Below, piece by piece: positions 1,314-17,614 of a stretch of 32,797 nucleotides of DNA. The notes beneath the pieces are model-generated. The model saw nothing but the letters and a program-made list of their open reading frames with translations, was not told the origin of the DNA and did not search any database. Source of the stretch: Candidatus Thorarchaeota archaeon (GTDB lineage Archaea; Asgardarchaeota; Thorarchaeia; Thorarchaeales; Thorarchaeaceae). The first letter of the stretch is position 1. Every line of letters starts with the position of its first letter. Made by a program: the position numbers and the translations under genes. The stretch spans positions 1 to 32,797 of the forward strand of contig JARGGA010000005.1 in the NCBI GenBank assembly GCA_029210805.1, in the 5' to 3' direction.

Positions 1314-3580
1314 ACAATGGCACTCATCACACACGGATGAATATTCACTACCAGCGGAAGTGCATTGCCCCTCTCAGGTATGACTCTCCACGCAGAACAC
1401 ATCTGGATGAGAGTATCTACAATATCCCAACAACTCCTTGGGGCTTTGGGTGGATGGCTCCTCAGCAAGAGGATATTCGAATCATTGTACAAGACACTCC
1501 AACTGGGGCAAACCCTTGGAGTACAATAATACACGTTCCCCACCTTGTGGGGTTTGCAGAGAAGTTCAGAGGACTTGCCAAGCGGGATGGAAACGTTGCT
1601 CCTGAGGAGGTGTTTCATCATGTCACTAATGTTCATCCTATGCATGGGAGAGGAGTGACACTTTCCAGCATTCAAGCATCTGTTGGTGATTTATCAAAGG
1701 TACAGTTTCCCAAAATTCTTGATGATGCATTGACCCTTGTACCCAGTACTCTCAGACGTAGAGAGCCTGTATCTGCTAAGAAGGAGAAAGAAGAAGAGCG
1801 TCTCTCCCAGAATTTACCTTGGCAATCGACCTTTCACACGGTTGGCACTGCAGGGGGCTCAACAATGGATGAAAGAACAGGTCTCGCGTTAACGAAACCG
1901 CCACCAACCCCGCGTAGAGGAACCCCAAAATACATTGATGCTTACACATATGATTTCAAAACGCCTAAGAAGAGGATCATTACCAGACGCTGGTTCTATG
2001 AACAGACTCCAACACAAATCATTGAGAGTGATGATGAGTACTATGATTCTACTCAACCTCTAGGAATTGAGGATGTGTGGATTGGAGAGATTGACACCTT
2101 AGAAACACGTGAACGTGAGCTAAGACGGCTCCACTATGCGGCAAAGCACCTAATTGAGCAATCGTCGCTATCTAATGATCTGAAATTTTGCTGTAAGAAA
2201 ATAGAACGATACTGTGCAATCCAATTTGGATTCATGAAAGAGAACCCCTCTCTAAAAACCTCCGAGTTCTTCCTTGATGCACTTAGAAGAGTCAAAGGAA
2301 TCATCCTCGAAGACTCTAGTAGACTGGAAATCTGGAACGTTCTCCTACCACATAGAGAGAACACAGTAACTCTCTTGAATACTGAAAAAAGAGATGCACT
2401 GGAAGAGGTCATAGAGCAAATACCTGATGTTTTGCAAATCTATGGTAATAACCTATTCCTTGCAGTTCTGAGTACACTGAGCAATAGGAACCCCTCTCTA
2501 GCAGAATATCTATGGACTCCCATATCTGAGTGGATATTCTACCAGCTGGGTATAAGGATACAATATGATACAACAAAGTCGGTCTATAGCTTTCAAGCAA
2601 TTCTCTCCAATCACAGGTCACGCACTAAGACACTATCGCAGACCGATCTCCCCAAGAGAGCGGCAGGTGAAGAGGAGATTGGTGCTATATTCTGGAAAGA
2701 GTCTGAGACTGGTTTCGATGCTATGCTACTTATCCCTCATGATGGTAGATATCTAACAGGGATTATTGAAAGGCTCAGAGAAAGATGGATTCCCCCGAAA
2801 TGGTATGCGTGTAAAACTACTGCTCAACACCTGAAAGAATTTGCAGAAGAATCGTTGGCATCCACTGATAAAACTCCGATTGTAATATCAATCGTCCAAA
2901 ACACTCAGGTTCTCTGGGTTCCGGTGATGGATGAATATGATGATGATTTTCGATGGGGTTCATTCACCATAGCCCATGGCAAACCAGGTACACGACGCGA
3001 TAGTATTCCATGGCTTAAACTAGAAACCACAATCTCCCTATCACCACCCAATAGTATACCAGCAATTCCCGATTCAATTGATGATACTCTTAGGAAACTG
3101 GCACGGGTCAAGCATCGAGCAGTTCCAGTAAAATTGATGGTGAGTGTTAACAAACATCGTCAGGTCTATGAAGTTAATCTGGAAGGCGAATCATTTGAAG
3201 AGCAGTTTGAATTCTCAAGGACAAGTGAACTTGTTCGGTTCCTCCGCTCGCCAATCCACCAAGGCGAAGGATATCGTTCGAAAGGACATACTCTCACTTG
3301 GGACCACAGAAATGATATTATCTATAATGAAGATTCCATTTCGTTCCTCATACCTCTTATTCACCGGAGCCGATTTTATCCAGCCGAGTATCAATACCCA
3401 AAGACATGCAAGGCCCTACTGGCTACTAAGCAAGGCACCGAGGTTTCCATAATCACAAGAATAAACGAGAGTGGATTTGGAATCCTTTTTGAGGACCTTC
3501 CACCAAATTCCTCACTAAGTCTATTGGAGGAGGCTACATTCTCCAAGTCTACACTAATGCTCTTAACAGAGTGCGAATAA
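1220..3580 (+). CDS. Giant RecB/Cas4-like nuclease family protein, 3' part after the frameshift
   Basis: This is the downstream part of the gene that starts upstream of the window; the ATG at 1220 is probably not a real start. Its first residues continue the alignment with the giant paralog exactly where the previous frame stops: SKMFPGHQQDLL aligns with LKNATPETHRNQL, and IIWIDNG with VLWFDSP. Further matches run along the protein, for example EDIRIIVQDT with DDIRLIVTHT, and ELVRFLRSPI with DLLRLLRWPM near the end. No known domain is recognised in this part. It ends about 330 residues earlier than the paralog. There is no signal peptide or membrane segment. The following small gene has its own TATA-like sequence, so it is probably not simply the missing C-terminus. 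Confidence 0.65.
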   Translation: MFPGHQQDLLRSLEQRLLDTLPRSKTNIIWIDNGTHHTRMNIHYQRKCIAPLRYDSPRRTHLDESIYNIPTTPWGFGWMAPQQEDIRIIVQDTPTGANPWSTIIHVPHLVGFAEKFRGLAKRDGNVAPEEVFHHVTNVHPMHGRGVTLSSIQASVGDLSKVQFPKILDDALTLVPSTLRRREPVSAKKEKEEERLSQNLPWQSTFHTVGTAGGSTMDERTGLALTKPPPTPRRGTPKYIDAYTYDFKTPKKRIITRRWFYEQTPTQIIESDDEYYDSTQPLGIEDVWIGEIDTLETRERELRRLHYAAKHLIEQSSLSNDLKFCCKKIERYCAIQFGFMKENPSLKTSEFFLDALRRVKGIILEDSSRLEIWNVLLPHRENTVTLLNTEKRDALEEVIEQIPDVLQIYGNNLFLAVLSTLSNRNPSLAEYLWTPISEWIFYQLGIRIQYDTTKSVYSFQAILSNHRSRTKTLSQTDLPKRAAGEEEIGAIFWKESETGFDAMLLIPHDGRYLTGIIERLRERWIPPKWYACKTTAQHLKEFAEESLASTDKTPIVISIVQNTQVLWVPVMDEYDDDFRWGSFTIAHGKPGTRRDSIPWLKLETTISLSPPNSIPAIPDSIDDTLRKLARVKHRAVPVKLMVSVNKHRQVYEVNLEGESFEEQFEFSRTSELVRFLRSPIHQGEGYRSKGHTLTWDHRNDIIYNEDSISFLIPLIHRSRFYPAEYQYPKTCKALLATKQGTEVSIITRINESGFGILFEDLPPNSSLSLLEEATFSKSTLMLLTECE

Positions 3581-3613
3581 TTGTTTGATTATTATAACGG
3601 TATCAGGCATCCT

Positions 3614-4099
3614 ATGATTCTGAATGTAACTGATATTCAGGATATCAGATTCCTCGGACTTTCTGAGGATTTTAGACTCGGCCAAGCATTTCAAAAATGT
3701 AGGGAGGAATCTTACTTTGAGGAAGAGATTGAATCGCAAGTTTCTTTGAAGGACGCTGGGGAAGATGCTCCTGCTGTGGTAAAACAGATGAAGGTTGATA
3801 TTTCTATGACCGAACATGGTCAAACCTTCAGTTACAAGGGGCTGGAGCTCAGCGGCAAAAGGATTGTTGTATCATTAGAGTCGAATATGGGAGATTTCGC
3901 AGAACTATATGTTGTTCATGACGTTTACAAATATCTACAAGATTCTCAATATGCAGGAGGAGTATACACCGAGCGTGTTGATACTGAAGTGAATGACAAT
4001 CTCGCACCATATGACCTTGAGGAAGAAGAGCTTAAAGCAATTAGAGAGAAGGTCAAACGGGCCCTAGGAGAAGAAGGAATCAGATTCATTGAGGAGTAG
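3614..4099 (+). CDS. Hypothetical acidic protein, 161 aa
   Basis: I do not recognise this gene. The frame is open from a TTG at 3581, but the ATG at 3614 is preferred: an ATTATTATAA sequence lies about 24 bases upstream, the spacing expected for a leaderless archaeal transcript. The product is soluble, mixed alpha/beta in appearance, with an acidic helical C-terminus (DLEEEELKAIREKVK). It follows the giant-protein fragment by 33 bases and precedes the replication genes. A distant relation to the acidic C-terminal tail of the giant paralog was considered, but I could not align the two convincingly. The sequence looks coding and has no frame damage. Confidence 0.6.
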   Translation: MILNVTDIQDIRFLGLSEDFRLGQAFQKCREESYFEEEIESQVSLKDAGEDAPAVVKQMKVDISMTEHGQTFSYKGLELSGKRIVVSLESNMGDFAELYVVHDVYKYLQDSQYAGGVYTERVDTEVNDNLAPYDLEEEELKAIREKVKRALGEEGIRFIEE

Positions 4100-5177: not shown

Positions 5178-6569
5178 ATGGCCCCGGATAAAAAAGCGCG
5201 CACCCGAAAGTTGCTACAGCTGATGTTTCAGGAGTATTACCGAACAAATCATGATAAGATTGACATACCTGATAAAATTCAGAACCGTGAGTTTGGTCTG
5301 GAAAACTGGGATTTCTCATGGGTGTGCAAGAAACGTATAGAGACTCTAGATGATGGAACAGACGTTCAAAGAGGCTGTGGAAAAAACGGAAGGTCGTTCT
5401 CAAATCTTCACATTTGCCCTCATTGCGGTGCCCAGGGGTTACAGACAACAAGATGGTCGCGTCACATTGGTTTTCGATCGCGAGATAATCTATTGGGTGA
5501 ATTGGCTAGATCCGTGCCTCACAGTGTATATCATTCGGCTGCATTTTATAGAGTGCCGGTAGCTCGTTCAATGATAGAAAAGGAGTGGAATGGTGCTGAA
5601 CTCGTGTTTGATATCGATGCTGACCATCTGGACATACCCTGTGCAAACAAACATGACGCTTGGCAATGCGGAAATACTGAATGTAACCAGGCAGGAAAAG
5701 GAAAAGCACCAGAAAATTGTCCGAGTTGTAATGGCGTATCGTTTAGAAGTCTCAAATGGATTTGTGATGATTGTCTGAATGCGGCAAGAGAGAACACAAT
5801 AAAACTGTACGACAAGTTTCTTGTGAAACACTTCGGGATTGATCCTGAATATATTCAGTTGAATTATAGTGGCCACCGGGGATACCATATACGAGTACGA
5901 GACCCAAGTGTCTTCGATTTGAGCTCAAATGGTAGAATGGAAATTGCTCACTACTTGACAGGTATGGGACTGAATAGCACAATCTCATCAGACGGTCTTC
6001 TTAGAATTGTTCCTACTGGTGAACTAAGAAACTGGCAACTTCCTGCGATTGCCAGAAAGCTTGCAGATGCCATGATTGAGTTCATTGATTCTATTGAATT
6101 GTATAAAGGAGATGAGCCATGGCTTAAGCGAATTTCAGTTCATAAGCAAGATGCAATTGAGGGACTGAGGAAAAATCCACCTATCCTTAGTGCAAAAGTA
6201 AAAGGGGTGGGTCCAAAATACTGGCAAGAGATAGCGAATAAAGCTGCAATGTTATACAGTGTAGATATTGATCAACCTGTTACAACTGATATTCATAGGG
6301 TGATTAGATTGATTGGAAGCTTAAATGGTAAGACTGGATTTACAGTCAATGAAATTACGCGTGAGGCACTTTCCAATTTTGATCCTTTCGGTGATGCTGT
6401 TGTTTTTGACGAAGGTTCTCTGAAGGTAACAATTCCTCAGAGAAGTATTGATGTCCCAGAGTTCAGAATTGCAGATTCTACTTATGGGCCATTCAATGAT
6501 ACCGTTGTGGATCTACCTAAGGCGGCAGCAGTCTTTCTATTATGTAAGGGGATGGCAAATGTTGAGTGA
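5178..6569 (+). CDS. priS: DNA primase small (catalytic) subunit PriS
   Basis: The product is the catalytic subunit of the archaeal/eukaryotic-type primase, which makes primers at replication forks with PriL. The ATG at 5178 gives 463 residues; a GTG nine bases earlier is less likely. Catalytic motifs are present: D145-x-D147 in LVFDIDAD, SGHRGYH at 231-237, and late in the protein DIHRVIRLIGSLNGKTG, which resembles the third conserved block. The usual zinc region follows the DxD (C155, H159, C164, C169, C181, C184, C196, C199 are candidates). An unusual extra cysteine-rich insert sits near the N-terminus (C50, C67, C80, C83 in a CxnC...HICPHC arrangement), where most archaeal PriS have only a short link; it may bind a second zinc. 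The stop overlaps the GINS start by 11 bases, suggesting translational coupling. PriL is not in the window. Confidence 0.95.
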   Translation: MAPDKKARTRKLLQLMFQEYYRTNHDKIDIPDKIQNREFGLENWDFSWVCKKRIETLDDGTDVQRGCGKNGRSFSNLHICPHCGAQGLQTTRWSRHIGFRSRDNLLGELARSVPHSVYHSAAFYRVPVARSMIEKEWNGAELVFDIDADHLDIPCANKHDAWQCGNTECNQAGKGKAPENCPSCNGVSFRSLKWICDDCLNAARENTIKLYDKFLVKHFGIDPEYIQLNYSGHRGYHIRVRDPSVFDLSSNGRMEIAHYLTGMGLNSTISSDGLLRIVPTGELRNWQLPAIARKLADAMIEFIDSIELYKGDEPWLKRISVHKQDAIEGLRKNPPILSAKVKGVGPKYWQEIANKAAMLYSVDIDQPVTTDIHRVIRLIGSLNGKTGFTVNEITREALSNFDPFGDAVVFDEGSLKVTIPQRSIDVPEFRIADSTYGPFNDTVVDLPKAAAVFLLCKGMANVE

Positions 6570-7182
6570 TATTTCATATGACACGATTAGCAAAGCATGG
6601 GAAAACGAGAAGGATAGTAAAAATCTCCAAGATTTCGAAGACCTTCGCCTAAGTAAAATGGTATCCTATCTATCGTCAATTCGACAGCAATTGGCTGAAA
6701 TGCCATCGGATAACGCCATTCAGGTAGATTTGCTAACTCAAGAAGGGCTCAACATAGAGTATATGCTTCGCGACCTCCTAATGCTCAGACGCACTAAAAT
6801 AATGAACTTGGTTCTACAAAATGAAACACCTAAGGCATCAATGACTTTGGCCGAGGAAGAGTTCCACAATCGTATGCAAAGGGGAATTTCAAGTCATACT
6901 GAATTCATTGATGAAGTGATTGCAGGGTCTCCTGTACCAACAATGAAACGAACAGGTAAATCAGAGAAGCCATCTCGGCCAGAAAAAGAAGTCGAGGATG
7001 ATTCTGAAGAGATGGAATATGTGATGGTGAGATTTTTGAGAGCCGTTGAAGAATCTTTCATGGGATTGGATGAAACAGTGTACGGCCCCTTTCAGGAAGA
7101 AGATGTTGCAACGATTCCTACTGCAAACGCTAAGGTATGGCTGAGAGATGGAACAGTTGCACGAGTAGCTCCTACAAAATAA
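6559..7182 (+). CDS. GINS complex subunit (Gins51/Gins15-like)
   Basis: This 207-residue protein is a GINS-family subunit, part of the CMG-like replicative helicase with MCM and Cdc45/GAN. The best evidence is the C-terminal B-domain signature: VRFLRAVEESFMGLDE, then VYGPFQEEDVATIPTANA and a short strand with RDGTVA. The N-terminal half is helical and contains the typical MLRDLLMLRRTKI helix. The alpha-domain-first order with a C-terminal B domain is that of Gins51 (Sld5/Psf1-like). A low-complexity acidic linker (about residues 135-155) joins the halves. The ATG at 6559 is chosen because AAGGGG at 6546-6551 lies seven bases upstream and because it overlaps the end of priS, as in other archaeal priS-GINS pairs. 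Confidence 0.85.
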   Translation: MLSDISYDTISKAWENEKDSKNLQDFEDLRLSKMVSYLSSIRQQLAEMPSDNAIQVDLLTQEGLNIEYMLRDLLMLRRTKIMNLVLQNETPKASMTLAEEEFHNRMQRGISSHTEFIDEVIAGSPVPTMKRTGKSEKPSRPEKEVEDDSEEMEYVMVRFLRAVEESFMGLDETVYGPFQEEDVATIPTANAKVWLRDGTVARVAPTK

Positions 7183-7195
7183 GAGGTTGAATAGA

Positions 7196-7480
7196 ATGGA
7201 TGAGCATATTCAATCGCGTGTGAGTACCATACGAAGCTTAGTTCAAAGGGATAGCAGAAACTCCGAAGAATCGTTTGAAAAGCTCCTTGTGGCACTTGCA
7301 GGTGTTTTTCGTTTGTTGGATGGAAAACAGTCAACGTTGGTTGCTCTACAGGGTTCATCAACAGAAGTTCAGGGGTATATACTAAAACTACTTGGGCAGA
7401 TAAGACAGCAGATAAACGATAGCTATGATTGCCTGATTGAAGAATTAGATAAACTTGCAGAGCGGATGGAGAAGATTTAA
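7196..7480 (+). CDS. Small helical protein, 94 aa, unknown
   Basis: I do not recognise this protein. It is predicted to be almost entirely helical and amphipathic, with heptad-like stretches (IQSRVSTIRSLVQ, ILKLLGQIRQQI, CLIEELDKLAERMEKI), so it may form a coiled coil or helical bundle. The ATG at 7196 is preferred over the TTG at 7187 because GAGGT at 7183-7187 stands eight bases before it. It begins 13 bases after the GINS gene, so it is probably in the replication operon. A role as an accessory replication factor is only a guess from context. Confidence 0.65.
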   Translation: MDEHIQSRVSTIRSLVQRDSRNSEESFEKLLVALAGVFRLLDGKQSTLVALQGSSTEVQGYILKLLGQIRQQINDSYDCLIEELDKLAERMEKI

Positions 7481-7509
7481 GATTCCAAGAAATAGAAAGC
7501 TCTAAGTGG

Positions 7510-7722
7510 ATGCTATCTAACCTGATTCGTATGACAGCGGAACGAGAGTGGATTCTCTACATTGCAGGAATTGTATCTGTTGCAATCGCTCTTGTTAGTA
7601 ATTTTATGTATCCCCTTAACGAAATGGGAATATTGTATATCTTAGCCTTCGATGCTACTATAATTTTTGGAGTTTTTTGCATTCTGCTACTCATTCAGAA
7701 GAGAGCTCTTGAAGACTGGTAG
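7510..7722 (+). CDS. Small membrane protein, 70 aa, two membrane segments
   Basis: This is an unrecognised small protein with two hydrophobic segments, roughly residues 14-33 (WILYIAGIVSVAIALVSNFM) and 40-62 (GILYILAFDATIIFGVF and on), with a basic start and a charged end (QKRALEDW). It lies 29 bases after the helical gene on the same strand and may be the last gene of the pcn transcript. No Shine-Dalgarno is clear. Beyond it the strand switches, with 137 AT-rich bases before the convergent giant gene. Confidence 0.55.
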   Translation: MLSNLIRMTAEREWILYIAGIVSVAIALVSNFMYPLNEMGILYILAFDATIIFGVFCILLLIQKRALEDW

Positions 7723-7859
7723 CATAATGTCTGCTTCTGCATAACTTAATTTCTAAATAATTGTAAGAGTTCTCAGAAACATAGTATCTTCAAAAATATT
7801 CATAGAAACTGACTAGCACAAGAAGGAGCAAATTCGCATGACTCACCTCAAGATAGGGC

Positions 7860-10800
7860 TTATGACTCTCCGAGCTCCTCAATGACTTCTTCGAGTTCGC
7901 TTTCCAATACTTCATCCAGATTTGCGATGCGCTCTTTCATCTCTTTTACTTCTGCTTCAATCAGATTTCTAATCTCCTCAATGGAGTATACCGATATACT
8001 CTCTACAGCATCATATAGAAAGACTCCATCAGCTACCTTTTCTCCCTGTTCATCCCTTACTATCCACTTTAAACAATCGTATTCCTCATACACCCTCAAC
8101 TGCAAGGGTCCAGTTCCGTCCTCATCTTGTGGATCATCGCACGAATTAGATAGGCCGAAGGAATCAAGTGCTTCCTTGAATTGTCTGTTAGCATCTTCTT
8201 CATTAATGATATTGAAACACGAACTCCACTCATGACTAAACAAATCACTGAATCCCTCTTCGACCTTCTCTCTTGTATCGGTCTTATCAATATCAAAAGA
8301 TTCCCTTCTTATCTCTAGACTCCTTATGTCACTATCTAGACTGAGTATGACAGAATATTGTGAGTCTGTATATTCAATTGTTACTTCGCAGGGCGGACTG
8401 GTCACTCCAAATCCGTCAGCCTCGAGAATTTTAGTCAGTCTTTTCTCAGCTTCTTGTAGGTTATTGATCTCATCAAGAGTGATTCCAACGCGCTCCAGAA
8501 TAAGGGTCAGAATTCGTCCTTTCTCCTCTTTCAGGTCATTGGTAAAATCAAATTCATAGGTGGTGTAGAATGGATGAAAGGGTTTCCCTGTTGCAGTTGA
8601 GATAGCATACCATCCAACCTCTCTCTTACCACTTGTAATAGATACAACCCATTCTTCCTCCTCAGCTCGAAGATAGGACCCTGGTGGGACCGAAGAGAGA
8701 ACATGGTCAAACTCTCTAAGAAGGAGTCTGATCCATTTCTCCTCTTGAAAGACCATGCACTCAGGAGTATCTGCTTTGTGACTGAACGATACCTCAAGTT
8801 TGTAGAGTTTTCCACTCCATATGCATCTTGGTGCAAGAAGGCCATGTATCTCTCTTCCTGTCTTGTACCCATCTAGCTGTCGCTCCAATCTCTTTGGAGC
8901 GTCTGCTGGGAGTTTGATATACCAACACGCACCATGTTCGTCCTCTTTCCCAAGGGCAATCGGACAAACAGACTCATCATGCTCAATCTCTACTGTGAGT
9001 TCCTCAGCATCCTCGAAGAATTGAGAAACCCTACTAGGGAGTTCCTCTGGAGTTGCCCTGGTTGCGCTAAAGATGATATATGGTCTGAGAAAGTCAAGAT
9101 TTGAGTACTTAATATCATCAAATACATTCCATGTCACATACTCGCCTGCATCTGTGTACATTGGCCCCGCATGAATCATAGGCCACCTGAGGAGTCTTAG
9201 CAGGTCTGGAACTGACTCATGTTCAACCTCCTGAAGTATGTCACCATCTTTGTCAACAAAGGCCACCCTGCAGACATCTTCTTCTCTCTCTAGCAGCACA
9301 CTAATGGAGATTGGAGAGGTTACTGAATTTAGGTAGCGCCTCAGAGCATCTGAAACACGTTGATAGAATTCCTCTGGGAGTCTGAAGTCTAATGGAGGTT
9401 CAGTAATGGATTGGGCTTCAGTTAGTTTGATGCCTTGTAGTTGACTGACTGAGGAATATCCTTTGCGTATCACTTCAAGCAGTCCTCCAAACTCTCTGTC
9501 ATCGTTATCAGGGTCTATGAACCATACCTCAAGTCCCTGTTCGGTTTCCCTACATGCAATAATGACTTGCTTGTATCCAAGAATATCATCTAATGTCTGT
9601 TGTACGAGAATCTCTTGTTTGGTTTCAGCCCAATATTCATCTTCTTTAGAAGGTCTGTTCGAAAAACAGCCCACCAACATCCTTGAACTTTTCTTTGGAT
9701 CTTGAAGGACCGTCCACCGATGAGTGCCAGTTTCTCCCGATTGGAACTCGATGCCTAGCACCCATTCAGATTCAAGTTTTTCTTCAATGACAGAGGCGTC
9801 TGAGATCAGTTCAGGAGCTTCACTTCTCTGTCTTGGTCTAGTCTGTAGTTTCAATGGCGAACGATAGAGACGTTGTGAATTGATCCTTCCAAGTGTCATG
9901 GCAACGTAAGCCTTACCGGACCTAATGTCTGGCTGTCGAAATCGTAAGAGGGCGAGTGTACTGGGTCCTATACTTGGAGGATTATCAGTGGTTTCCACAG
10001 AAACGATAACGTCCTCTGGACTACCCTTGAACTCCTGTATCAGTTCATCATACTGCTCTTCAAGGGTCTTACTTAGTTCGCCCAGAAACTTGTTCTTAGG
10101 ATTGAGCCTAACAATATATGGGATGAGTGTGAGAGCCAGAAGTTTCATCCTCTCACGAAGGTCTTTTTCAGGAAAGGCATTCTTTTCAGTCCTCTCTCTG
10201 TATACTAGACCACTTCCCTGATTCTTGAAGCGTTTTGACCATCCCTGTAGTGATGGAATAGACTCGAATCTTATGTCTACTTTCTCACGAGTATGTGTGA
10301 CAATCAATCGAATATCATCATATATTGGAGTATCACCAATACTTGGCAATGTCCATTTCTCAGGTTCAACTGCACTCCTTGGAGGGGAAGGTAGATTCCA
10401 GACTACCTCAGTCGTGTACTCTGCTAGTGACGAGGAAGAGTAGTATGGTAGTAAAGCTCTGGTCGCATACGGTATCGATTTCTCAGCAGAGGGAACTGGT
10501 GAGTCAAACCACAGGACAGTGGTATCATCTTCATCAGGAAGACTTGCCAGTAGTCTATCCAGAATAATCTGGAGTTGGTTTCTATGGGTTTCTGGAGTGG
10601 CATTCTTGAGTACGTCAATTCCGGATACAACGATAACTAATGGCCTGTCAGGCTCTTTCTCGATATCAAAGGTTGGTTCAAGACCATCATCATATAGATG
10701 GGAGAGAATGCTATTGAGATGAGCCTTGACCTCTATCTGTTCAAAGAAGTTACGAATGTGATCATAGTGTGCCTTTACCTCTTCTTCTGGAGTGCACCTC

Positions 10801-12770
10801 CTAGGCCTTAGACGCAATCGAGCCTCTGCCAGTTTTGGTTCAACGAACTGGTCTGCAAGATCAAGCCACAGAAACCTCGCATTGGGGATATTCATCTTCA
10901 TCTGATACAGTATCTGCAGTCCATGATAGTTTCGTGCGTTGTAGGCAGCTGAGGTTCCAGCAGATGTAGGGGACTCTCCTGTGAGATAGAGGATAAACCG
11001 CCTATCAGACTCCTCGTTCTGGTGAAAGGGATTGTAAGGTGGGCTCCAGGGTGATTCAACTCTCTTGCTTTGAGATTTCCTTAGAACTCTCTGTTTGTGA
11101 ATAACAAGAACAACTTTACAATCGGAATCATTTGATGGAGTGATGATGGTTCTTTTTACATTCCCCTTGATTTTCTTGAGAAACTCATATGCCTTGATAA
11201 CAAGTCCCTCAATGATTCGTCTAATCTGATTGATGTCTGTGATTGCCTCGATCATTATCGTGGCCCTGAATACATGGGCGGTTTCTTCTCCCGTGACCTC
11301 CTGAAATCTCTGAGCCAGTGCCTCTGCATAGATTGCGACCTGTGTTCGAGCGTTCTTATAGGGAGTAGAATCGACTATCGATTTCCATTCTTTCTCTTCC
11401 AGCGACCTATCCTGAAGAGGAAACTCAGCTATAACACGTTGAGGAATTCCATCTGTTCCTCTTGATTCTGATGCCTTTTGTATAGCATCAAGATACCACT
11501 TGTGTCCCATTCGTGTCTTGATCTCACAAGCTAATGCAGGTCGATAGAGTGCCTTTTTTCCATCCGTTGTCACAACTCTCTCCAGAAGTGTGATGTCCAC
11601 CTTCCCTCTTCCTGAGTCTGTATCCAGTGGTACTTCAGAAACAATGAGATATTCAGAGGATCTTGTGTATTCATGTCCCTGAAAGATGGCATCCCTCAAA
11701 TCCCAAGGGGTTGGAAAGAGATTCTCTATCCTCCGATGCATGATTGATCCTTTTAATTGACCTCTTTTGATTGCTTGCTCTCTTATGTATTCAACATCTT
11801 TCACTGTAATACATGGCTCGATAACACCAGGCGATCTGTAGAAGCCCGTCTGTTTGAGTCGTTTTATTTCCCGCAACACTGGAGAATCTCCATACAACTG
11901 AAGGAATTCATCATATTGAACATCAGTAAAGTCTATAGAAACCTCTCCCTGATCATATTCAAGAGTGCTAGTGACGCTCCTATCCACCCTCATGGTAGGT
12001 TGATATCCAGCATCTGTGATCAGATCTTTTACTTTGCCAAGGGCTTCAATTATTCCATTCCTGAACCCAAGTCTTCCGCAGTTGTACTCTGAATAGATGT
12101 GTTCCAGATAGGGTCTTGTCAGAAGCAGTAGGAGATTACTATAACGAGAAGTTTCCCTTTCTGGCACATCATGAATTGTACAAAATGTTGCAAGATACTC
12201 ATTGTGGCTTCTTGCTGCATCTCCAAAGTCCAATGAAGGAAGGTCTGGATGGGAGAGAATCACTCTAGGACCAAAGGATGTCCCCTCATATCCTGCTACA
12301 CGGAACTTCCTCCTCTTTACACCATCTCTCCGAGTTCTTGTTCCAAATTTGATCGACTTAGGGAGTGGAAAGTCCATCTCAGAAAACTCTCTCAGGTTGG
12401 CACCACAGATATTCTGTCGTGCATTATGAGGTCCTACTGTACCATCCGAGTTCCTTTGCCTCTGAACTTCTGTAAATCCAAACTCAGCCGCTTTTTCATT
12501 CAGCATCTTGAGATTGTTATCTCTGATCTGCGGCTCAGCCTTTAGAATATAGGAGTAATCAGGGTTTCCTCGTTCTTTAGTGAGGAGATATACCTGACGG
12601 GCAATCTTCCAGATTTCATCCGAGCTTCTGTAGTGTTTCGATGTTGTCTTGTTCTTGATTGCCCTCTGTAGTTGCACTGTTGAAGAGAGACCTGTCTGCA
12701 TTGCGATAGAGATTACTCTCTCTGGATGTATGGGGAGTGGTCGTGCAGGTCGTCCTCTTCGTCTTGGCAT
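7860..12770 (-). CDS. Giant protein with RecB/Cas4-like PD-(D/E)XK nuclease domain, 1636 aa
   Basis: This intact gene encodes a protein of unknown role. Residues 1-340 begin very basic (MPRRRGRPAR) and have no clear known fold. At 340-490 is a RecB/Cas4-type nuclease signature in order: G341-x3-H345, E379, D392 in GKVDIT, E416-x-K418 in CEIKTR, and Q477-x3-Y481 in QVAIY. These are the metal-binding and catalytic residues of that family. From about 590 to 760 there is an alternating strand-helix region: LYLTGESPTSAGTS, FLWLDL, VIVVSGIDV, TVLWFDS. It resembles a RecA/KaiC-like core but lacks the Walker A lysine. The remaining 850 residues are unrecognised and end in an acidic coiled-coil-like tail. 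No signal peptide or membrane segment is seen. The ATG at 12770 follows a TATA-like GTTAAATA by about 27 bases. A frameshifted paralog lies at the window start. Nuclease activity is inferred from motifs only. Confidence 0.85.
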   Translation of the reverse strand: MPRRRGRPARPLPIHPERVISIAMQTGLSSTVQLQRAIKNKTTSKHYRSSDEIWKIARQVYLLTKERGNPDYSYILKAEPQIRDNNLKMLNEKAAEFGFTEVQRQRNSDGTVGPHNARQNICGANLREFSEMDFPLPKSIKFGTRTRRDGVKRRKFRVAGYEGTSFGPRVILSHPDLPSLDFGDAARSHNEYLATFCTIHDVPERETSRYSNLLLLLTRPYLEHIYSEYNCGRLGFRNGIIEALGKVKDLITDAGYQPTMRVDRSVTSTLEYDQGEVSIDFTDVQYDEFLQLYGDSPVLREIKRLKQTGFYRSPGVIEPCITVKDVEYIREQAIKRGQLKGSIMHRRIENLFPTPWDLRDAIFQGHEYTRSSEYLIVSEVPLDTDSGRGKVDITLLERVVTTDGKKALYRPALACEIKTRMGHKWYLDAIQKASESRGTDGIPQRVIAEFPLQDRSLEEKEWKSIVDSTPYKNARTQVAIYAEALAQRFQEVTGEETAHVFRATIMIEAITDINQIRRIIEGLVIKAYEFLKKIKGNVKRTIITPSNDSDCKVVLVIHKQRVLRKSQSKRVESPWSPPYNPFHQNEESDRRFILYLTGESPTSAGTSAAYNARNYHGLQILYQMKMNIPNARFLWLDLADQFVEPKLAEARLRLRPRRCTPEEEVKAHYDHIRNFFEQIEVKAHLNSILSHLYDDGLEPTFDIEKEPDRPLVIVVSGIDVLKNATPETHRNQLQIILDRLLASLPDEDDTTVLWFDSPVPSAEKSIPYATRALLPYYSSSSLAEYTTEVVWNLPSPPRSAVEPEKWTLPSIGDTPIYDDIRLIVTHTREKVDIRFESIPSLQGWSKRFKNQGSGLVYRERTEKNAFPEKDLRERMKLLALTLIPYIVRLNPKNKFLGELSKTLEEQYDELIQEFKGSPEDVIVSVETTDNPPSIGPSTLALLRFRQPDIRSGKAYVAMTLGRINSQRLYRSPLKLQTRPRQRSEAPELISDASVIEEKLESEWVLGIEFQSGETGTHRWTVLQDPKKSSRMLVGCFSNRPSKEDEYWAETKQEILVQQTLDDILGYKQVIIACRETEQGLEVWFIDPDNDDREFGGLLEVIRKGYSSVSQLQGIKLTEAQSITEPPLDFRLPEEFYQRVSDALRRYLNSVTSPISISVLLEREEDVCRVAFVDKDGDILQEVEHESVPDLLRLLRWPMIHAGPMYTDAGEYVTWNVFDDIKYSNLDFLRPYIIFSATRATPEELPSRVSQFFEDAEELTVEIEHDESVCPIALGKEDEHGACWYIKLPADAPKRLERQLDGYKTGREIHGLLAPRCIWSGKLYKLEVSFSHKADTPECMVFQEEKWIRLLLREFDHVLSSVPPGSYLRAEEEEWVVSITSGKREVGWYAISTATGKPFHPFYTTYEFDFTNDLKEEKGRILTLILERVGITLDEINNLQEAEKRLTKILEADGFGVTSPPCEVTIEYTDSQYSVILSLDSDIRSLEIRRESFDIDKTDTREKVEEGFSDLFSHEWSSCFNIINEEDANRQFKEALDSFGLSNSCDDPQDEDGTGPLQLRVYEEYDCLKWIVRDEQGEKVADGVFLYDAVESISVYSIEEIRNLIEAEVKEMKERIANLDEVLESELEEVIEELGES

Positions 12771-12793
12771 CTCATTCTTCTATATCCTTTTTT

Positions 12794-12803
12794 GCTATTT
12801 AAC
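12794..12803 (-). promoter_or_regulatory. TATA-like box of the giant gene
   Basis: On the minus strand this reads GTTAAATAGC. It ends about 24 bases before the ATG at 12770, so transcription would begin at or next to the start codon (leaderless). No Shine-Dalgarno is visible before that ATG, which fits. Confidence 0.4.
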
Positions 12804-12886
12804 TTCAATAGGTGAGAGTATTTATATTGTATTTATTTCTTTAAAATCGTATATGAGTGTTGAAATTTAGTGTTCTAAATATTAAA

Positions 12887-12900
12887 TAATTAGCTAATTA
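12887..12900. repeat. 14-bp perfect palindrome in the divergent promoter region
   Basis: TAATTAGCTAATTA is a perfect palindrome placed between the minus-strand giant gene and the plus-strand TnpB region. It lies 14 bases before the first plus-strand TATA box. It could be a dimeric repressor site, but it sits in very AT-rich DNA, where chance palindromes are common. Confidence 0.3.
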
Positions 12901-12913
12901 ATAACTCTCATAA

Positions 12914-12926
12914 CTTTATATATTCA
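12914..12926 (+). promoter_or_regulatory. First of two identical TATA boxes
   Basis: CTTTATATATTCA is repeated exactly at 13011-13023, in both cases preceded by AA. An ATG follows 24 bases after the TATA core, as at the second copy, so this copy could drive a separate short leaderless transcript covering 12939-13008. Confidence 0.5.
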
Positions 12927-12938
12927 TTGACTGTATCA

Positions 12939-13008
12939 ATGTACGAGGTTAAATTCCTCTTCCTGAACAAGAAGAGGAGTGAACTCAACTGACCAGAAAC
13001 TGGGTCAG
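12939..13008 (+). ncRNA. Possible short structured transcript with a 17-codon ORF
   Basis: Between two identical TATA boxes are two strong hairpins. The first pairs TCCTCTTC (12955-12962) with GAAGAGGA (12971-12978). The second pairs CTGACCAG (12989-12996) with CTGGGTCAG (13000-13008), with one bulged base and an AAA loop. The same stretch can be read as a leaderless mini-ORF from the ATG at 12939 to the TGA at 12990-12992 (MYEVKFLFLNKKRSELN). It might be a small RNA or leader linked to the TnpB gene, an element end, or a leader peptide. I cannot tell which. Confidence 0.3.
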
Positions 13009-13010
13009 AA

Positions 13011-13023
13011 CTTTATATATTCA
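13011..13023 (+). promoter_or_regulatory. TATA box of the TnpB-like gene
   Basis: This is the second exact copy of CTTTATATATTCA. The ATG of the TnpB-like gene lies 26 bases from the TATA core, which predicts a leaderless mRNA. No Shine-Dalgarno precedes that ATG, in agreement. Confidence 0.55.
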
Positions 13024-13037
13024 GAAGGCGAAATTCA

Positions 13038-14729
13038 ATGGCTCGTTCCAAAGGTGTAATAATCTCTGTCAAGGTTCCTATCAAATGGGAAGTAATGACA
13101 GAGAGGACTAGGCAGAGGCTTAGACAGACCGTTGGAAGGGACACTAGGGTGATTCGTGCATTTCTTGGAATAATAGAACAACATGAAGACGAGTTGCTAA
13201 CGGGAAAGAACAGACAAAGAATTAGCGACGGCAAGCTGGACCAGCATACCATGACCGCGCTTAGGATGAATCCGGGTTATGAACAGAGAACGAACGTTCC
13301 ACATGACTTCAAGGTCCGATTTCCCCGAATCTCACAGAATGAATTGATTGAATGTCGACAAACCGCAGTTGCACTCTATGAGAGTTATCTCAAACTAAAT
13401 GCAAAAAATGGAGTGCGTGCTTCAAGACCTACTTCGATTAATGCGACTAGAAGAATACCACGCTGGGTCTTTTCTCGAAGGTTCAGTCTGATAGAAAAGA
13501 AAACCTCTGTCACTCGATGGTGGCTTGATATCAGGGATGCTCTTGACTCTGTGAGAGAGGGAAGAATCCATCATGATAGACTGAGTATTCCTCTCAAGGT
13601 GTCTCCATTTCACCTCAACCAGATAAGACGAGGTGAAGTAAAGGCACTACAGATCTTCACTGACAGGAATCGAAAATGGTGGGTGAGTCTTGCGGTGCGA
13701 ATAGACATCGACGAACTTCAAGAGAATGGCCTTCCAGCAGCTATCCTTGGTGTTGATCTTGGAGTTGAGAAAGCTGTTTGTTCTACCCTCCTTACTCCTG
13801 AAAAAGTACGGGAAACAAGATACTTCGTACAAAAAGAAAAGGTCAAAATTATCAAGAAGTATGATTGCATTGTTGCAGACCTACAGAGAAATATGCACAC
13901 TCGACAGAATGAAGGACTACCTAATGATAGAGTTGCTGAGAAACTCCGTCGTTTACGCTCAAAGAGAGAGAATGTATCTCGGGAATATGACCGAGTCCTT
14001 GTTCGTCAACTTCTCGACTATATCTCAGAACTGTCCAAGAAATACACACTCTATGTAGCCATTGGTCGTCTGAAGAATATTCGAGTTCGTGCAAAGCGAG
14101 GAAACTACCAAGGACGAAGGTTCAGGGGCATGATACACTCATGGGCCTTTGCAAGGATAACTGACAGTCTGAAACACGGGCTGGCTCAGCTAGGATGGAA
14201 TGTTGATGGAAAGGATGCTCGTTTTAGAGATGTCCCTGAGGCTTGGACCTCCATCATGTGCTGGAAGTGTGGAAGCAAGGGTACGAGACCCAAGCAGAAC
14301 TACTTCCACTGTCCATCCTGCGGTCATAAGACCAATGCTGATAGGAACGGTAGTATTAACATCGCTGCACGACTCCTTACGCTCACAAAGTCACTGCACT
14401 CTGTGAGAGGACTAGGCAAGTGGGATAGTGCGATTGTCAAGGCAAAATCACGAAGCTCACGACTGAAAGCCCAACCGAGAATCTCGAAGAGATTGTCAAG
14501 AGGGAAGTCCTTACTCTCCAAACAAGAACCAACATCAGGTTCTGGAGAGTCCGCGGCCGTTCACTATGTCCAGTCGGACCTTGTTAGTATCAGTGATGGT
14601 GCTGGGAAGGGTGATAATGACCCTGCTGTGGAAAAAACTGTGGAAACGCTCACTGTCGCTGGAAGTGATGAATCAGCACAAAGACAGGAGAAAGAGGCCA
14701 GGTCTGTAGGAGGGATTCCATCTCAATGA
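13038..14729 (+). CDS. tnpB: TnpB-like RNA-guided nuclease (IS200/IS605-type accessory protein)
   Basis: The 563-residue protein has the RuvC/zinc-ribbon core of TnpB, the ancestor of Cas12. RuvC-I is LGVDLG with D240. The zinc ribbon is C408, C411, C425, C428. RuvC-III is NADRNGSINIAAR with D435. At the usual RuvC-II glutamate position the sequence is VAIGRLKNI, with G343. A glutamate at E401 in VPEAWTS lies where one TnpB/Fanzor group has its relocated catalytic acid, so the enzyme is more likely rearranged than dead. About 110 residues after the RuvC core are polar and low in complexity; in TnpB genes such DNA often also encodes the guide RNA scaffold. No TnpA is nearby, so this is a solo tnpB or a remnant of an IS605-type element. 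Known family role: RNA-guided cutting of the empty donor site to keep the transposon. Confidence 0.85.
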   Translation: MARSKGVIISVKVPIKWEVMTERTRQRLRQTVGRDTRVIRAFLGIIEQHEDELLTGKNRQRISDGKLDQHTMTALRMNPGYEQRTNVPHDFKVRFPRISQNELIECRQTAVALYESYLKLNAKNGVRASRPTSINATRRIPRWVFSRRFSLIEKKTSVTRWWLDIRDALDSVREGRIHHDRLSIPLKVSPFHLNQIRRGEVKALQIFTDRNRKWWVSLAVRIDIDELQENGLPAAILGVDLGVEKAVCSTLLTPEKVRETRYFVQKEKVKIIKKYDCIVADLQRNMHTRQNEGLPNDRVAEKLRRLRSKRENVSREYDRVLVRQLLDYISELSKKYTLYVAIGRLKNIRVRAKRGNYQGRRFRGMIHSWAFARITDSLKHGLAQLGWNVDGKDARFRDVPEAWTSIMCWKCGSKGTRPKQNYFHCPSCGHKTNADRNGSINIAARLLTLTKSLHSVRGLGKWDSAIVKAKSRSSRLKAQPRISKRLSRGKSLLSKQEPTSGSGESAAVHYVQSDLVSISDGAGKGDNDPAVEKTVETLTVAGSDESAQRQEKEARSVGGIPSQ

Positions 14730-14735
14730 TGACAG

Positions 14736-14775
14736 ACAATGCTCTTGCTCATTGTAAATTCTTCGTGAATTTGCA
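14736..14775 (+). other. Overlapping hairpins just after the TnpB-like gene
   Basis: ACAATG (14736-14741) pairs with CATTGT (14750-14755). TGTAAATTC (14753-14761) pairs with GAATTTGCA (14767-14775), 9 bp with one G-T pair and a TTCGT loop. The two share 14753-14755 and so are mutually exclusive at that point. They may belong to the element's right end or to its guide RNA, or act in 3' end formation. Position just past the stop fits the first two. Confidence 0.4.
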
Positions 14776-14803
14776 AAGTGGTGACACTGGCAGGAGAAGG
14801 GCG

Positions 14804-14830
14804 GAACACAGAAGTTTCTTGTTGGTGTTC
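14804..14830. repeat. Inverted repeat downstream of TnpB
   Basis: GAACAC (14804-14809) and GTGTTC (14825-14830) are perfect arms, with AAG and CTT pairing further inside. It lies about 75 bases after the TnpB stop and before the hdr promoter. It could mark the right boundary of a former IS605-type element. No matching left copy was found. Confidence 0.3.
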
Positions 14831-14866
14831 ACTCACATCAAATGCAAGAAATAGGTTATCTGCAAA

Positions 14867-14879
14867 CTTTTAATATAGG
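14867..14879 (+). promoter_or_regulatory. TATA-like box of the hdr cluster
   Basis: CTTTTAATATAGG is the best TATA-like sequence before hdrC. Transcription starting about 25 bases on would leave a leader of roughly 45 bases, with GGTGG at 14926-14930 nine bases before the ATG as a possible ribosome binding site. Confidence 0.4.
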
Positions 14880-14939
14880 CTTCATTTGTGCTGTGGCATC
14901 TAGCCCCTTCGCCAGTCATCGTATTGGTGGTTATTAATC

Positions 14940-15482
14940 ATGACCGAAGCAGATGGAAAGGACGGCCCTCCGGCTGTATTGGTAGACCCAATAGACATGT
15001 CAAAACTCGATCCCAAATTTGGAGCCGTGATAAAGAGCATGCCTAATGGTGATGAGTTAACTGCATGTTTTGCGTGTTCTACATGTACTGCAGCATGTCC
15101 TATCGCGAATGTTTGGCAATACAAGCCGCATCAGCTTATTCGAATGATAATCTTAGGAATGTGTGAAGAGGTGTTATCCTCTGACGAAATATGGCTATGC
15201 TTGACTTGCTTCCAATGTCAAGAGCGATGTCCTCAGAAAGTAAGGGTCACTGACATCTTCTTTGACTGTAAGAATTTGGCTGCAGAAGAAGGAAAGATAC
15301 CCGAGAATATTGTTGGCCTTGCAAAAACGCTGATGGAAAAGGGTCAACTCTATGAAGTAACCGCAGACTGGGAAAGAGAGGATATGGATTTAGAACCTGC
15401 TGTCCCTGGTCTTTCAACAGATGAGTTTAGGGCAATAATCAAAGATACCCGATCTGGTAAGATTGTTGGAGGAAAGGAATAG
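14940..15482 (+). CDS. hdrC: Heterodisulfide reductase-like subunit C (HdrC)
   Basis: The 180-residue protein has the two [4Fe-4S] motifs of HdrC: CFACSTCTAACP near residues 43-54 and CLTCFQCQERCP near residues 83-94. HdrC passes electrons between the flavin subunit HdrA and the catalytic subunit HdrB. The protein is soluble and lacks the membrane cytochrome found in HdrDE-type systems. It begins the cluster, followed one base later by hdrB and then two hdrA-type genes, the set expected of a cytoplasmic HdrABC. In non-methanogens the disulfide substrate is generally unknown, so CoM-S-S-CoB should not be assumed. Confidence 0.93.
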   Translation: MTEADGKDGPPAVLVDPIDMSKLDPKFGAVIKSMPNGDELTACFACSTCTAACPIANVWQYKPHQLIRMIILGMCEEVLSSDEIWLCLTCFQCQERCPQKVRVTDIFFDCKNLAAEEGKIPENIVGLAKTLMEKGQLYEVTADWEREDMDLEPAVPGLSTDEFRAIIKDTRSGKIVGGKE

Positions 15483-15483
15483 A

Positions 15484-16350
15484 ATGCCGTCATACAATCT
15501 CTATATGGGTTGCAGTGTACCTGCTAATTACCCAAACTATGAAGCTGCAATGATCAAGGTAGGTAACGCCTTTGGGATGGAACTCAACTATATGGAAGGC
15601 GTATCTTGTTGTGGCAGTCCAAACCTTAGAGCATTTGATTATATGGGATGGTTGATTGTTAATGCAAGAACCCTAGCTATTGGAGAGAAAAATGGTCATG
15701 ATATTCTTACACCCTGCAATGGTTGCTTTGGGTCATTGAAGGATGTGTATCATTTTCTCAAGCATAATAAGTCATACAGAGAAGAAGTCAATAAGGTGCT
15801 AAAGAAGGAGGGTCTGGAATTCAAAGGTACCTCCAAACCACGACATTTTGTGGAGGCGCTCTATTCTGATATTGGTATTGAGCAAATACAAAAGAAAATC
15901 ACCAAACCCTTAGACGGCGTGGGAATAGCCATTCATTATGGATGCCATGTTCTCCGACCTGAGGACGTTACTGAGTTTTCTCCTGAGATACTTGATGAAC
16001 TTGTGAGAGTAACAGGCGCCACAGTCATTGACTATCCATTATGGAAGCAGTGTTGTGGAGCAACTGTATTGCCGGTTGATGAGGATTTAGCAATCAGATT
16101 AGCACGTGACAAGCTGAAGTCCATGACTGAAGCTGGTGCAGTGTTTGCCACTGTAGTTTGTCCAGCATGTGGAAATCAATTGGATTTGCAACAGTTGGGA
16201 CTCAAAGACTCATATGGAGAAGAATACAATCTTCCAGTTTTATTGTATCCCCAAATACTAGGTCTTGCCATGGGAATGGATGATGATGAAGTTGGACTCT
16301 CAATGAACCGTGTAGCTGCGGATGAGATCATGAACCATTTGACGGAATGA
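15484..16350 (+). CDS. hdrB: Heterodisulfide reductase-like subunit B (HdrB)
   Basis: This is the 288-residue HdrB, the subunit that carries the non-cubane Fe-S clusters used for disulfide reduction. Two CCG-type motifs are clear: the first set includes SCCGSPN and CNGCF in the N-terminal half, the second YGCHVLRP, KQCCGATVLP and VVCPACGNQLD. The order and length match methanogen HdrB. The ATG at 15484 is preferred over the frame's TTG at 15463: it follows GGAGGAAAGG by five bases and lies one base past the hdrC stop. All the conserved cysteines appear intact, so catalysis is plausible, but the thiol substrate is not evident from sequence. Confidence 0.95.
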   Translation: MPSYNLYMGCSVPANYPNYEAAMIKVGNAFGMELNYMEGVSCCGSPNLRAFDYMGWLIVNARTLAIGEKNGHDILTPCNGCFGSLKDVYHFLKHNKSYREEVNKVLKKEGLEFKGTSKPRHFVEALYSDIGIEQIQKKITKPLDGVGIAIHYGCHVLRPEDVTEFSPEILDELVRVTGATVIDYPLWKQCCGATVLPVDEDLAIRLARDKLKSMTEAGAVFATVVCPACGNQLDLQQLGLKDSYGEEYNLPVLLYPQILGLAMGMDDDEVGLSMNRVAADEIMNHLTE

Positions 16351-16363
16351 GGTATGATATCTG

Positions 16364-17614
16364 ATGTCGAATCCGGTCCTCATCATAGGCGCTGGAGTGG
16401 CAGGTCTCACCGCTGCGGTGGAACTTGCAGACTCAGGAGTTCCCACTATCGTTGTAGAAAGACTTCCGACGATTGGAGGAAATGCATTGGATCTTTACAA
16501 GGCATTTCCAACTGATGATTGCTTCTATTGTTTCGAAGGCAATCGTTGGCGTCCAGGTATCAGAAAATGTTTCTACAGAAGTGCACTCACTGACCAGCCA
16601 AATATAGACCTCAAAATCAACTCATATGTTGAGAATATTGCAGGAGAAGCAGGAAAGTTCGATGTTACAATACACATTGAACCAGAATATGTCGAAGCCA
16701 AGAAGTGCATCATGTGTGGACTCTGTATGGAACACTCAGACGCATTTTCACTGGTATCCCCTCAGTGTCAGCCACAGGCAGTGACTTATGATGCATCTAA
16801 AGCAAATGAAGGCGATAAGAAAGCTGCCGAGGAGTGTCCAACTAAGGCAATCAATCTGGATGCTGAAGCTCGAGATGAAACAGTGAAGGTTTCAGACATT
16901 GTTATCGCAACTGGTTATCACGAGATGAAGCCAGTCAATATTGATGAATATGCATATGGAAAGTATCCGAATGTAGTAACTCAACTCGAACTGGCTCAAA
17001 TATTGGATCCAAATGGTGCTACAGGGGGTAAGCTCCTTCGCCCATCAGATGGAAAGCCTACAACACGAGTAATGATGGTACAATGTGTTGGAAGTAGAGA
17101 TGAGAATTACTATCCATTCTGTTCCAAGATATGTTGTGTATTTGCCCTCAAACATGCAAACATTATTGCCGAGGAGCGTGATGCGAGTAATATTAGTGTC
17201 GTCTACATGGATATCAGAACCTATGACTCACACGAACGCTACTACCGAGAGGCCAGACAAAATGGCGTTGAATTCGTTCGTGGAAGAGTGGCAAGGATTG
17301 AACCACGAGATGATGACACACTTGATATCATCGTGTACGATTCGCTATTAGACAAATACCTCAAGTTTCCAGTAGACCTTTTTGTATTGTCATCAGCTCT
17401 AGAACCTCCTGAAGGTGGAGAGAAGATAATCGAATCACTTGGGCTAAAAGTTGCAAGCGGCTTCATTGCCCCTGCAGACCTTGTTTCAGAAAATGAAGTT
17501 GTAGCCGGAAACCATGTCTATGCGTGTGGAGCTGCTTTGGGACCAGCTGAGGTTCCCGAAAGTGTTACACAAGCAAGAGCAGTGGTTTCAAAGATTCTCC
17601 AAGGGAGGAAGTGA
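16364..17614 (+). CDS. Short HdrA-like FAD/Fe-S protein
   Basis: The 416-residue product is an HdrA-type flavoprotein without the N- and C-terminal additions of the next gene. It begins with a dinucleotide fold (VLIIGAGVAGLTAAVEL, FAD binding) and has the HdrA-style cysteine insert after it (DDCFYC and a later KCF). A ferredoxin-like segment, CIMCGLC with a distant EECP, and the VMMVQCVGSRDENYYPFCSK block shared with HdrA follow. A GAGGT at 16349-16353 precedes the ATG by ten bases. It is followed four bases later by the longer hdrA, and the two are clear paralogs (compare VMMVQCVGSR and VVMVQCVGSR). A second HdrA in one cluster suggests two flavin sites, as in bifurcating Hdr complexes with paired HdrA subunits. 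Confidence 0.88.
   Translation: MSNPVLIIGAGVAGLTAAVELADSGVPTIVVERLPTIGGNALDLYKAFPTDDCFYCFEGNRWRPGIRKCFYRSALTDQPNIDLKINSYVENIAGEAGKFDVTIHIEPEYVEAKKCIMCGLCMEHSDAFSLVSPQCQPQAVTYDASKANEGDKKAAEECPTKAINLDAEARDETVKVSDIVIATGYHEMKPVNIDEYAYGKYPNVVTQLELAQILDPNGATGGKLLRPSDGKPTTRVMMVQCVGSRDENYYPFCSKICCVFALKHANIIAEERDASNISVVYMDIRTYDSHERYYREARQNGVEFVRGRVARIEPRDDDTLDIIVYDSLLDKYLKFPVDLFVLSSALEPPEGGEKIIESLGLKVASGFIAPADLVSENEVVAGNHVYACGAALGPAEVPESVTQARAVVSKILQGRK

Follow-up and report, generated by a model that had tools for sequence, protein, structure and literature searches.

A two-gene mobile element of Thorarchaeota pairs TnpB with a giant protein carrying predicted Cas1-like and RecB-family domains

We found that a giant gene of Candidatus Thorarchaeota archaeon forms a mobile element together with a tnpB gene read in the opposite direction. 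The reading we favor, with a probability of about 0.6, is that this element belongs to a family of two-gene, head-to-head transposons of Thorarchaeota and a few Heimdallarchaeota, in which the giant protein probably acts as the integrase and TnpB serves in retention as an RNA-guided nuclease. The window, i.e. the whole stretch of DNA analyzed (32,797 nt), is a contig (C492) of a 4.0 Mb genome in 699 contigs. An initial annotation of this DNA had read the giant protein as a RecB-type nuclease of an expanded, multi-copy and mobile family, all of which stood, whereas its Cas4-like label was too specific and its suggestion of defense found no support; it did not include the Cas1-like domain, the RecA-like domain, the constant pairing with TnpB or the omega-RNA. 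The parts of the element are:

7751-14858: the entire mobile element (~7.1 kb), whose right border is well defined and whose left border is placed to within about 30 bp; absent from locus L160 of genome G001
7736-7750: left copy of the direct repeat, imperfect, TCTGCATAACTTAAT; a probable decayed target-site duplication, from the comparison with the L160 empty site
7863-12770 (-): giant gene, 1636 aa; stop codon at 7860-7862
12771-13037: spacer of 267 bp between the divergent start codons of the giant gene and tnpB
13038-14729 (+): predicted TnpB, type I (PF07282, E 5e-12)
14687-14858 (+): omega-RNA-like segment overlapping the tnpB 3' end; its scaffold ends ...AAATAGGTTA at the element border
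14859-14878 (+): TCTGCAAACTTTTAATATAG, which holds the right repeat copy as well as the predicted guide; the first bases of the genomic flank, also present at the L160 empty site

The element is mobile

At locus L160 of G001, a genome of the same genus, homologues of window positions 6376-7722 and 14860-16979 adjoin. Hence, the element is missing there. In the window, the repeat that borders it is direct but imperfect and about 15 bp long (7736-7750 and 14859-14874), and only two genes lie between its borders. Two genomes that share a genus, with loci L087 and L094, provide reciprocal empty sites: each lacks the element of the other, and the direct repeats at these verified sites measure 13 bp (GGTTCCGTAACTG) and 9 bp (GGTTTTGGC). 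The family is multi-copy, and with empty sites for three elements (window, L087 and L094), the earlier suggestion that it is expanding or mobile was borne out.

Insertion is biased toward tRNA sequence but is not exclusive to it: a match to tRNA sequence lies within 60 bp in 9 of 31 right flanks, compared with 41 of 2000 random windows. Joining the flanks to rebuild interrupted tRNAs gave one clean case (L044) and one uninformative case (L118); hence, the bias rests on flank similarity.

The giant gene is a multi-copy family of Asgard genomes

The giant open reading frame (7860-12770, -) is intact, with no internal stop codons in its 1636 aa. As the initial annotation had said, it falls in no named family: searches of Pfam, PHROG and PADLOC with the window protein gave no convincing family match. 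Relatives, each a single gene for a protein of about 1400 to 1950 aa, are present in 34 of the 227 Asgard genomes searched, which come from the window's own taxonomic family plus two genomes of one other (Heimdallarchaeal) family. By title, the giant-family loci in the named collection are 18 from Thorarchaeota, one from Lokiarchaeota and one from Heimdallarchaeota. Matches occur at up to 13 places per genome, many of them fragments, and none was found in viral contigs.

This patchy spread, together with the nuclease and Cas1-like domains described below, would also fit a defense or CRISPR-derived immune module that sits in a mobile context by chance. Against this, there were zero matches to defense models, no other recurrent defense genes among the clustered neighbors, and no CRISPR array or Cas2 was seen, while many copies per genome are decayed and the empty sites are precise. 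We consider such a module very improbable, and nothing found supports the defense role first proposed.

The giant protein carries a RecB-family nuclease domain

Four parts of the giant protein could be told apart:

12078-12743 (-): predicted Cas1-like integrase domain, residues 10-231 (from L120 against TIGR00287, VIA against 9p11 and residue alignment)
11271-11813 (-): predicted RecB-family PD-(D/E)XK nuclease domain, residues 320-500 (from invariant motif residues and the order of secondary structure)
10173-11009 (-): predicted RecA/RAD51-like domain, residues 588-866 (from VIA)
7863-9773 (-): repeated beta-beta-beta-alpha units, residues 1000-1636 (from the structure model)

The RecB-type motifs noted earlier (H345, E379, D392, E416-x-K418 and Q477-x3-Y481) are at exactly these positions and are near-invariant in relatives. 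Across 23 aligned sequences, down to 21% identity to the window protein, there is no variation at H345, E379, D392, K418, Q477 or Y481. Across 81 non-redundant giant proteins, with gaps left out, the counts are 73/73 for H, 71/73 for E379, 73/73 for D, 72/72 for E or D at position 416, 72/72 for K, 71/71 for Q and 71/71 for Y.

The structure model of residues 1-1000 (mean pLDDT 78, pTM 0.79) places H345 in a helix (323-349), E379, D392 and E416/K418 in three strands (374-384, 387-400 and 407-420) and Q477/Y481 in a second helix (472-493). Judged from this secondary structure, the residues follow the expected helix-strand-strand-strand-helix order, so the model gives no ground to reject the proposed site. 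Residues 320-500 are assigned, from motifs and model, as a putative RecB-family PD-(D/E)XK nuclease with H, E, D, E/D-x-K and Q-x3-Y on an alpha-beta-beta-beta-alpha core. No conserved Cys for an Fe-S cluster was found in the invariant or near-invariant columns of the nuclease region in 32 sequences. Hence, the domain is not Cas4 proper, and Cas4-like was too specific a name.

A RecA-like part and C-terminal repeats follow the nuclease

In the predicted model, residues 588-866 have a RecA/RAD51-like fold (VIA Z ~12, rmsd 3.9), and the Walker A lysine is absent from this domain. Foldseek with the 1-1000 model returned RecA-like matches (best E 1.3e-3), as did a viral structure library apart from its first match, which is unnamed. 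The model of residues 1000-1636 matched only small, weak actin/RNase H-like fragments (Z <=5.8), and the number of beta-beta-beta-alpha repeats in the C-terminal third differs among members (proteins of ~1400 to 1950 aa).

In one lineage, a RAD51-like ATPase gene lies directly downstream of the giant gene, overlapping or abutting it (L091:2261-3238(-), L106:5831-6868(+) and L108:1689-2621(-)); no TnpB was seen at L091 and L106.

A nuclease and a RecA-like fold in one protein, as well as this separate RAD51-like gene, could be taken to mean that the element spreads by homing: TnpB would cut, the giant protein would steer gene conversion through RecB-like resection and RecA-like pairing, and the Cas1-like domain would bind branched DNA without integrating. 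However, the insertions, with their direct repeats, lie at numerous unrelated sites, a pattern that gene conversion by itself does not produce, and the RecA-like domain is without its Walker A lysine. Hence, we judge homing of this kind to be quite unlikely.

The N-terminal domain is Cas1-like

Among 37 members scanned, the giant protein of locus L120 matched TIGR00287 (cas1) with E 3.7e-7, under the curated cut-off for a full Cas1, and it also matched TIGR03641 (E 4.5e-3) and PF01867 (E 9e-4); the window giant protein itself had zero matches to Cas1 models. The L120 genome is from the second (Heimdallarchaeal) family, and its gene was recovered with E 9e-94 by a profile built without it and also has the invariant residues. 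No sensible match came from PDB sequence-profile searches, whether the query was the N-terminal domain or residues 1-870.

By structure, residues 10-231 of the predicted model resemble the Cas1 of entry 9p11 (VIA Z 11.6, 174 residues, rmsd 4.1), the sole entry that is not RecA-like among the 50 VIA matches listed. Since helical folds can score by chance, the likeness to Cas1 was also checked by sequence. In a profile-profile alignment with 25 Asgard Cas1 proteins, E79, R104, N116, H174, D181 and D184 align on the conserved Cas1 E, R, N, H, D and E. The hhalign score against the Asgard Cas1 alignment (E 0.003-0.009 as a single pair) was equaled in 11 of 150 block shuffles and hence is not significant by itself, so the comparison served as an alignment and not as proof.

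Cas1 enzymes are the integrases by which spacers enter CRISPR arrays. The catalytic residues of E. coli Cas1 are E141, H208, D218 and D221 (PMC9939771). Their counterparts E79, H174, D181 and D184 are each kept in at least 71 of 73 members, and in the predicted model the catalytic Glu, His and two Asp/Glu stand in Cas1 order inside the helical domain. The Cas1 N-terminal beta domain is absent: the model is helical from residue 16, and the L120 match begins at model position 102. Hence, this is a Cas1-like domain and not a whole Cas1 protein. By profile and residues, we place residues 10-231 in the Cas1 integrase superfamily as a predicted Cas1-like integrase domain; both active sites of the giant protein, this one and that of the nuclease, are conserved.

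The Cas1-like domain is the best candidate for the integrase because its active site is strictly kept, because the sizes of the repeats (9 and 13 bp) are more in keeping with staggered joining of the Cas1 type than with a serine recombinase, and because no other candidate is seen in most elements. Several points weigh against this assignment: the repeats vary in length (9, 13 and ~15 bp, longer at some tRNA sites), the true transposase could be the IS607-like serine recombinase that some type II elements carry, the N-terminal beta domain of Cas1 is not present, and an automated search did not find clear terminal inverted repeats. In L087, terminal inverted repeats are visible by eye.

TnpB is the constant partner of the giant gene

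Clustering of the flanking genes of 61 giant loci gave one overwhelming neighbor, TnpB, at 51 of them, and in 49 loci the two genes stand head-to-head with a spacing of 73-315 bp. Hence, the neighboring TnpB gene named by the initial annotation is indeed there (13038-14729, +), but it is not merely adjacent; it is the other half of the giant gene's unit.

Two types of TnpB occur among the giant loci. Type II has the canonical Asp-Glu-Asp, while in type I, that of the window, Gly takes the place of the usual RuvC-II Glu, and a Glu lies six residues ahead of the first CxxC. The window's type I protein has candidate RuvC catalytic residues D240, E401 (rearranged) and D435 and a CxxC...CxxC zinc finger, by which we classify it as a putative TnpB. 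A rearranged RuvC glutamate occurs in TnpB related to Fanzor and is known from IS607-type elements (PMC10711439), and the published expression for such proteins fits 29 type I proteins once its first spacing is slightly widened. The type of TnpB switches at least six times across well-supported branches of the giant-protein tree, and the window giant protein sits among carriers of type II yet is partnered with type I. This exchange of TnpB modules with the layout kept argues for a working partnership between the giant protein and TnpB.

At seven loci, mostly with type II TnpB, an IS607-like TnpA (Resolvase E 4e-24 plus a MerR HTH) lies at the 3' side of the giant gene; examples in type II elements are L040:7902-8516(-), L087:742-1272(+), L098:4807-5424(+) and L123:14321-15010(-). 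These recombinases, and the occurrence of rearranged-glutamate TnpB in IS607-type elements (PMC10711439), would suit a giant protein that is a passenger or helper of an IS607-like TnpA/TnpB transposon whose insertion is the work of a serine recombinase, acting in cis where a type II element has its own and otherwise in trans. Most loci are without a nearby TnpA, however, and the window element has neither a serine recombinase nor a Y1 transposase; in addition, the verified empty sites have direct repeats of 9-13 bp, which are not expected from IS607-type recombination, and the Cas1-like site is strictly conserved. We hold a passenger role to be unlikely.

In one clade, the 3' end of the giant gene faces a further, convergent gene for a conserved acidic protein of 193-226 aa with no Pfam match (L049:13521-14195(-), L111:7395-8021(+) and L055:14233-14853(-)).

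A predicted structured RNA marks the right border

The 3' end of type I tnpB overlaps a conserved segment of about 170 nt. RNAalifold on 19 sequences gave 21 pairs, of which 13 have both partners changed in one or more of the sequences, and the covariance model R1 matches window positions 14688-14836. The segment terminates in GTTCACTCAC...AGGTYA, after which the sequence differs at each locus; in the window, the scaffold ends at 14858, the border of the element. Hence, a predicted structured RNA lies at the border next to locus-specific flanks, and we classify 14687-14858 from its sequence as omega-RNA-like, with a predicted, locus-specific guide after it. An Rfam search around TnpB gave no match.

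In the window's genome, the covariance model found 27 omega-RNA copies with E of at most 0.01; of 119 Asgard genomes, 22 have copies, and these genomes all belong to the window's family. Many copies are solo, with no more of TnpB than its 3' end: about ten of them, on G000 contigs C29, C244, C324, C410, C562, C583, C228 and others, consist of the last ~110 TnpB codons, the omega-RNA and a new flank. They are more numerous than full elements and resemble non-autonomous remnants that still bear a guide. Some genomes, G011 among them, carry omega-RNA copies and no giant gene.

A proposed route of insertion and retention

A role in retention or homing has been proposed for TnpB in general. For the two-gene transposon with the giant protein as probable integrase, we infer the inserting enzyme, the order of the steps and every enzymatic activity as follows. 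The RecB-like nuclease would process the ends of the element, and the Cas1-like domain would join them to a target, often in or beside a tRNA gene, leaving a short duplication, while the RecA-like part and the C-terminal repeats may hold DNA or partners. The genomic flank just outside the element would then serve as the guide of the omega-RNA; with it, TnpB would cut copies of the site that are without the element, and repair from the filled copy would keep or spread it.

The two halves might instead work as one machine, in which TnpB and the omega-RNA mark or open the target, where insertion or copying of the element is carried out by the giant Cas1/RecB-like protein; this we regard as possible but doubtful.

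Relation to known systems

Casposons encode Cas1 and PolB and sometimes Cas4-like nucleases (PMC9939771, PMC6452270). The Asgard elements share with them a Cas1-like likely integrase, a RecB/Cas4-type nuclease nearby, direct repeats at the borders and a preference for tRNA genes, which besides EF-2 genes are the insertion sites of casposons. They differ in that PolB is absent, TnpB and omega-RNA are constant, and the Cas1-like domain is fused within a protein of 1400-1950 aa and is without the N-terminal beta domain. Casposons have terminal inverted repeats and target duplications of 14-15 bp; the direct repeats here are 9, 13 and ~15 bp (the last imperfect, in the window). The window element was rejected as a casposon, as no family B DNA polymerase gene is among the two genes between its borders.

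With IS607/IS605 elements (PMC10711439), the Asgard elements share TnpB with omega-RNA at the right border and, in some type II elements, an IS607-like TnpA. Unlike those, they have an inverted giant Cas1/RecB-like gene next to tnpB, are mostly without TnpA and have direct repeats at the borders; the window element, in which TnpA is absent, was rejected as an IS607/IS605 transposon. The residue pattern of type I TnpB is that of the Fanzor-like, rearranged-glutamate TnpB (PMC10711439), but type I is archaeal here and its partner is the giant protein rather than an IS607 TnpA.

Aloposons (PMC8813620) are also Asgard mobile elements with giant proteins and tRNA sites. They have tandem genes for 3000-6000 aa and a MinD/ParA-like gene, with no TnpB mentioned, whereas the elements here have a single gene for 1400-1950 aa paired with TnpB; hence, this identity was rejected.

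As cited in PMC8730458, Makarova reported in 2020 diverged homologues of Cas1 from Asgard archaea that may belong to novel mobile elements; from that citation, they share with the giant family an Asgard host, a diverged Cas1 and a mobile context, and the giant family may be among them. Among the papers searched, which did not include the 2020 report, none was found to describe an Asgard element with both TnpB and Cas1 or a casposon. In another Asgard family, proteins of 1336-1363 aa combine a DEAD-type helicase with a C-terminal Cas1 (PF01867 E ~1e-9) beside RAMP-like genes (L156:9035-13126(-) and L157:8766-12776(-)). These fusions were rejected as relatives of the giant family since their architecture differs, and they are probably the Asgard CRISPR-derived systems mentioned in PMC8730458.

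The giant protein and TnpB would bring relatives of both halves of CRISPR-Cas into one transposon. Casposons that encode Cas1 are the presumed source of CRISPR adaptation, and TnpB elements that of the type V effectors. With a predicted Cas1-like integrase domain fused to a RecB-family nuclease and accompanied by TnpB and a guide RNA, the element indicates that both modules can coexist in one transposon, offers a system for testing cooperation of Cas1-like proteins with TnpB, and adds a new integrase architecture. It also offers an explanation for the large number of orphan copies of TnpB and omega-RNA in genomes of Thorarchaeota. If TnpB and the giant protein did insert the element jointly, it would mirror, in a living system, the merger of a casposon with a TnpB element that presumably gave rise to type V CRISPR-Cas.

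A second copy and other genes of the window

The window holds another member of the family:

3-4099 (+): second family member, damaged, of another subfamily; 5' part cut by the contig start

The damaged copy reported by the initial annotation is thus real. It begins mid-protein because the contig starts there, and it has a frameshift at about 1220-1310 and an early in-frame TAA at 3578; since the window is a contig of a metagenome-assembled genome, these defects may be assembly errors. Its nearest nucleotide relatives are L104 and L101. The replication genes reported between both copies were found as well, namely PCNA, primase and GINS. Elsewhere, 20071-21642 (-) encodes a protein of 523 aa with about eight tandem helix-turn-helix units and an HNH-like Cys/His end.
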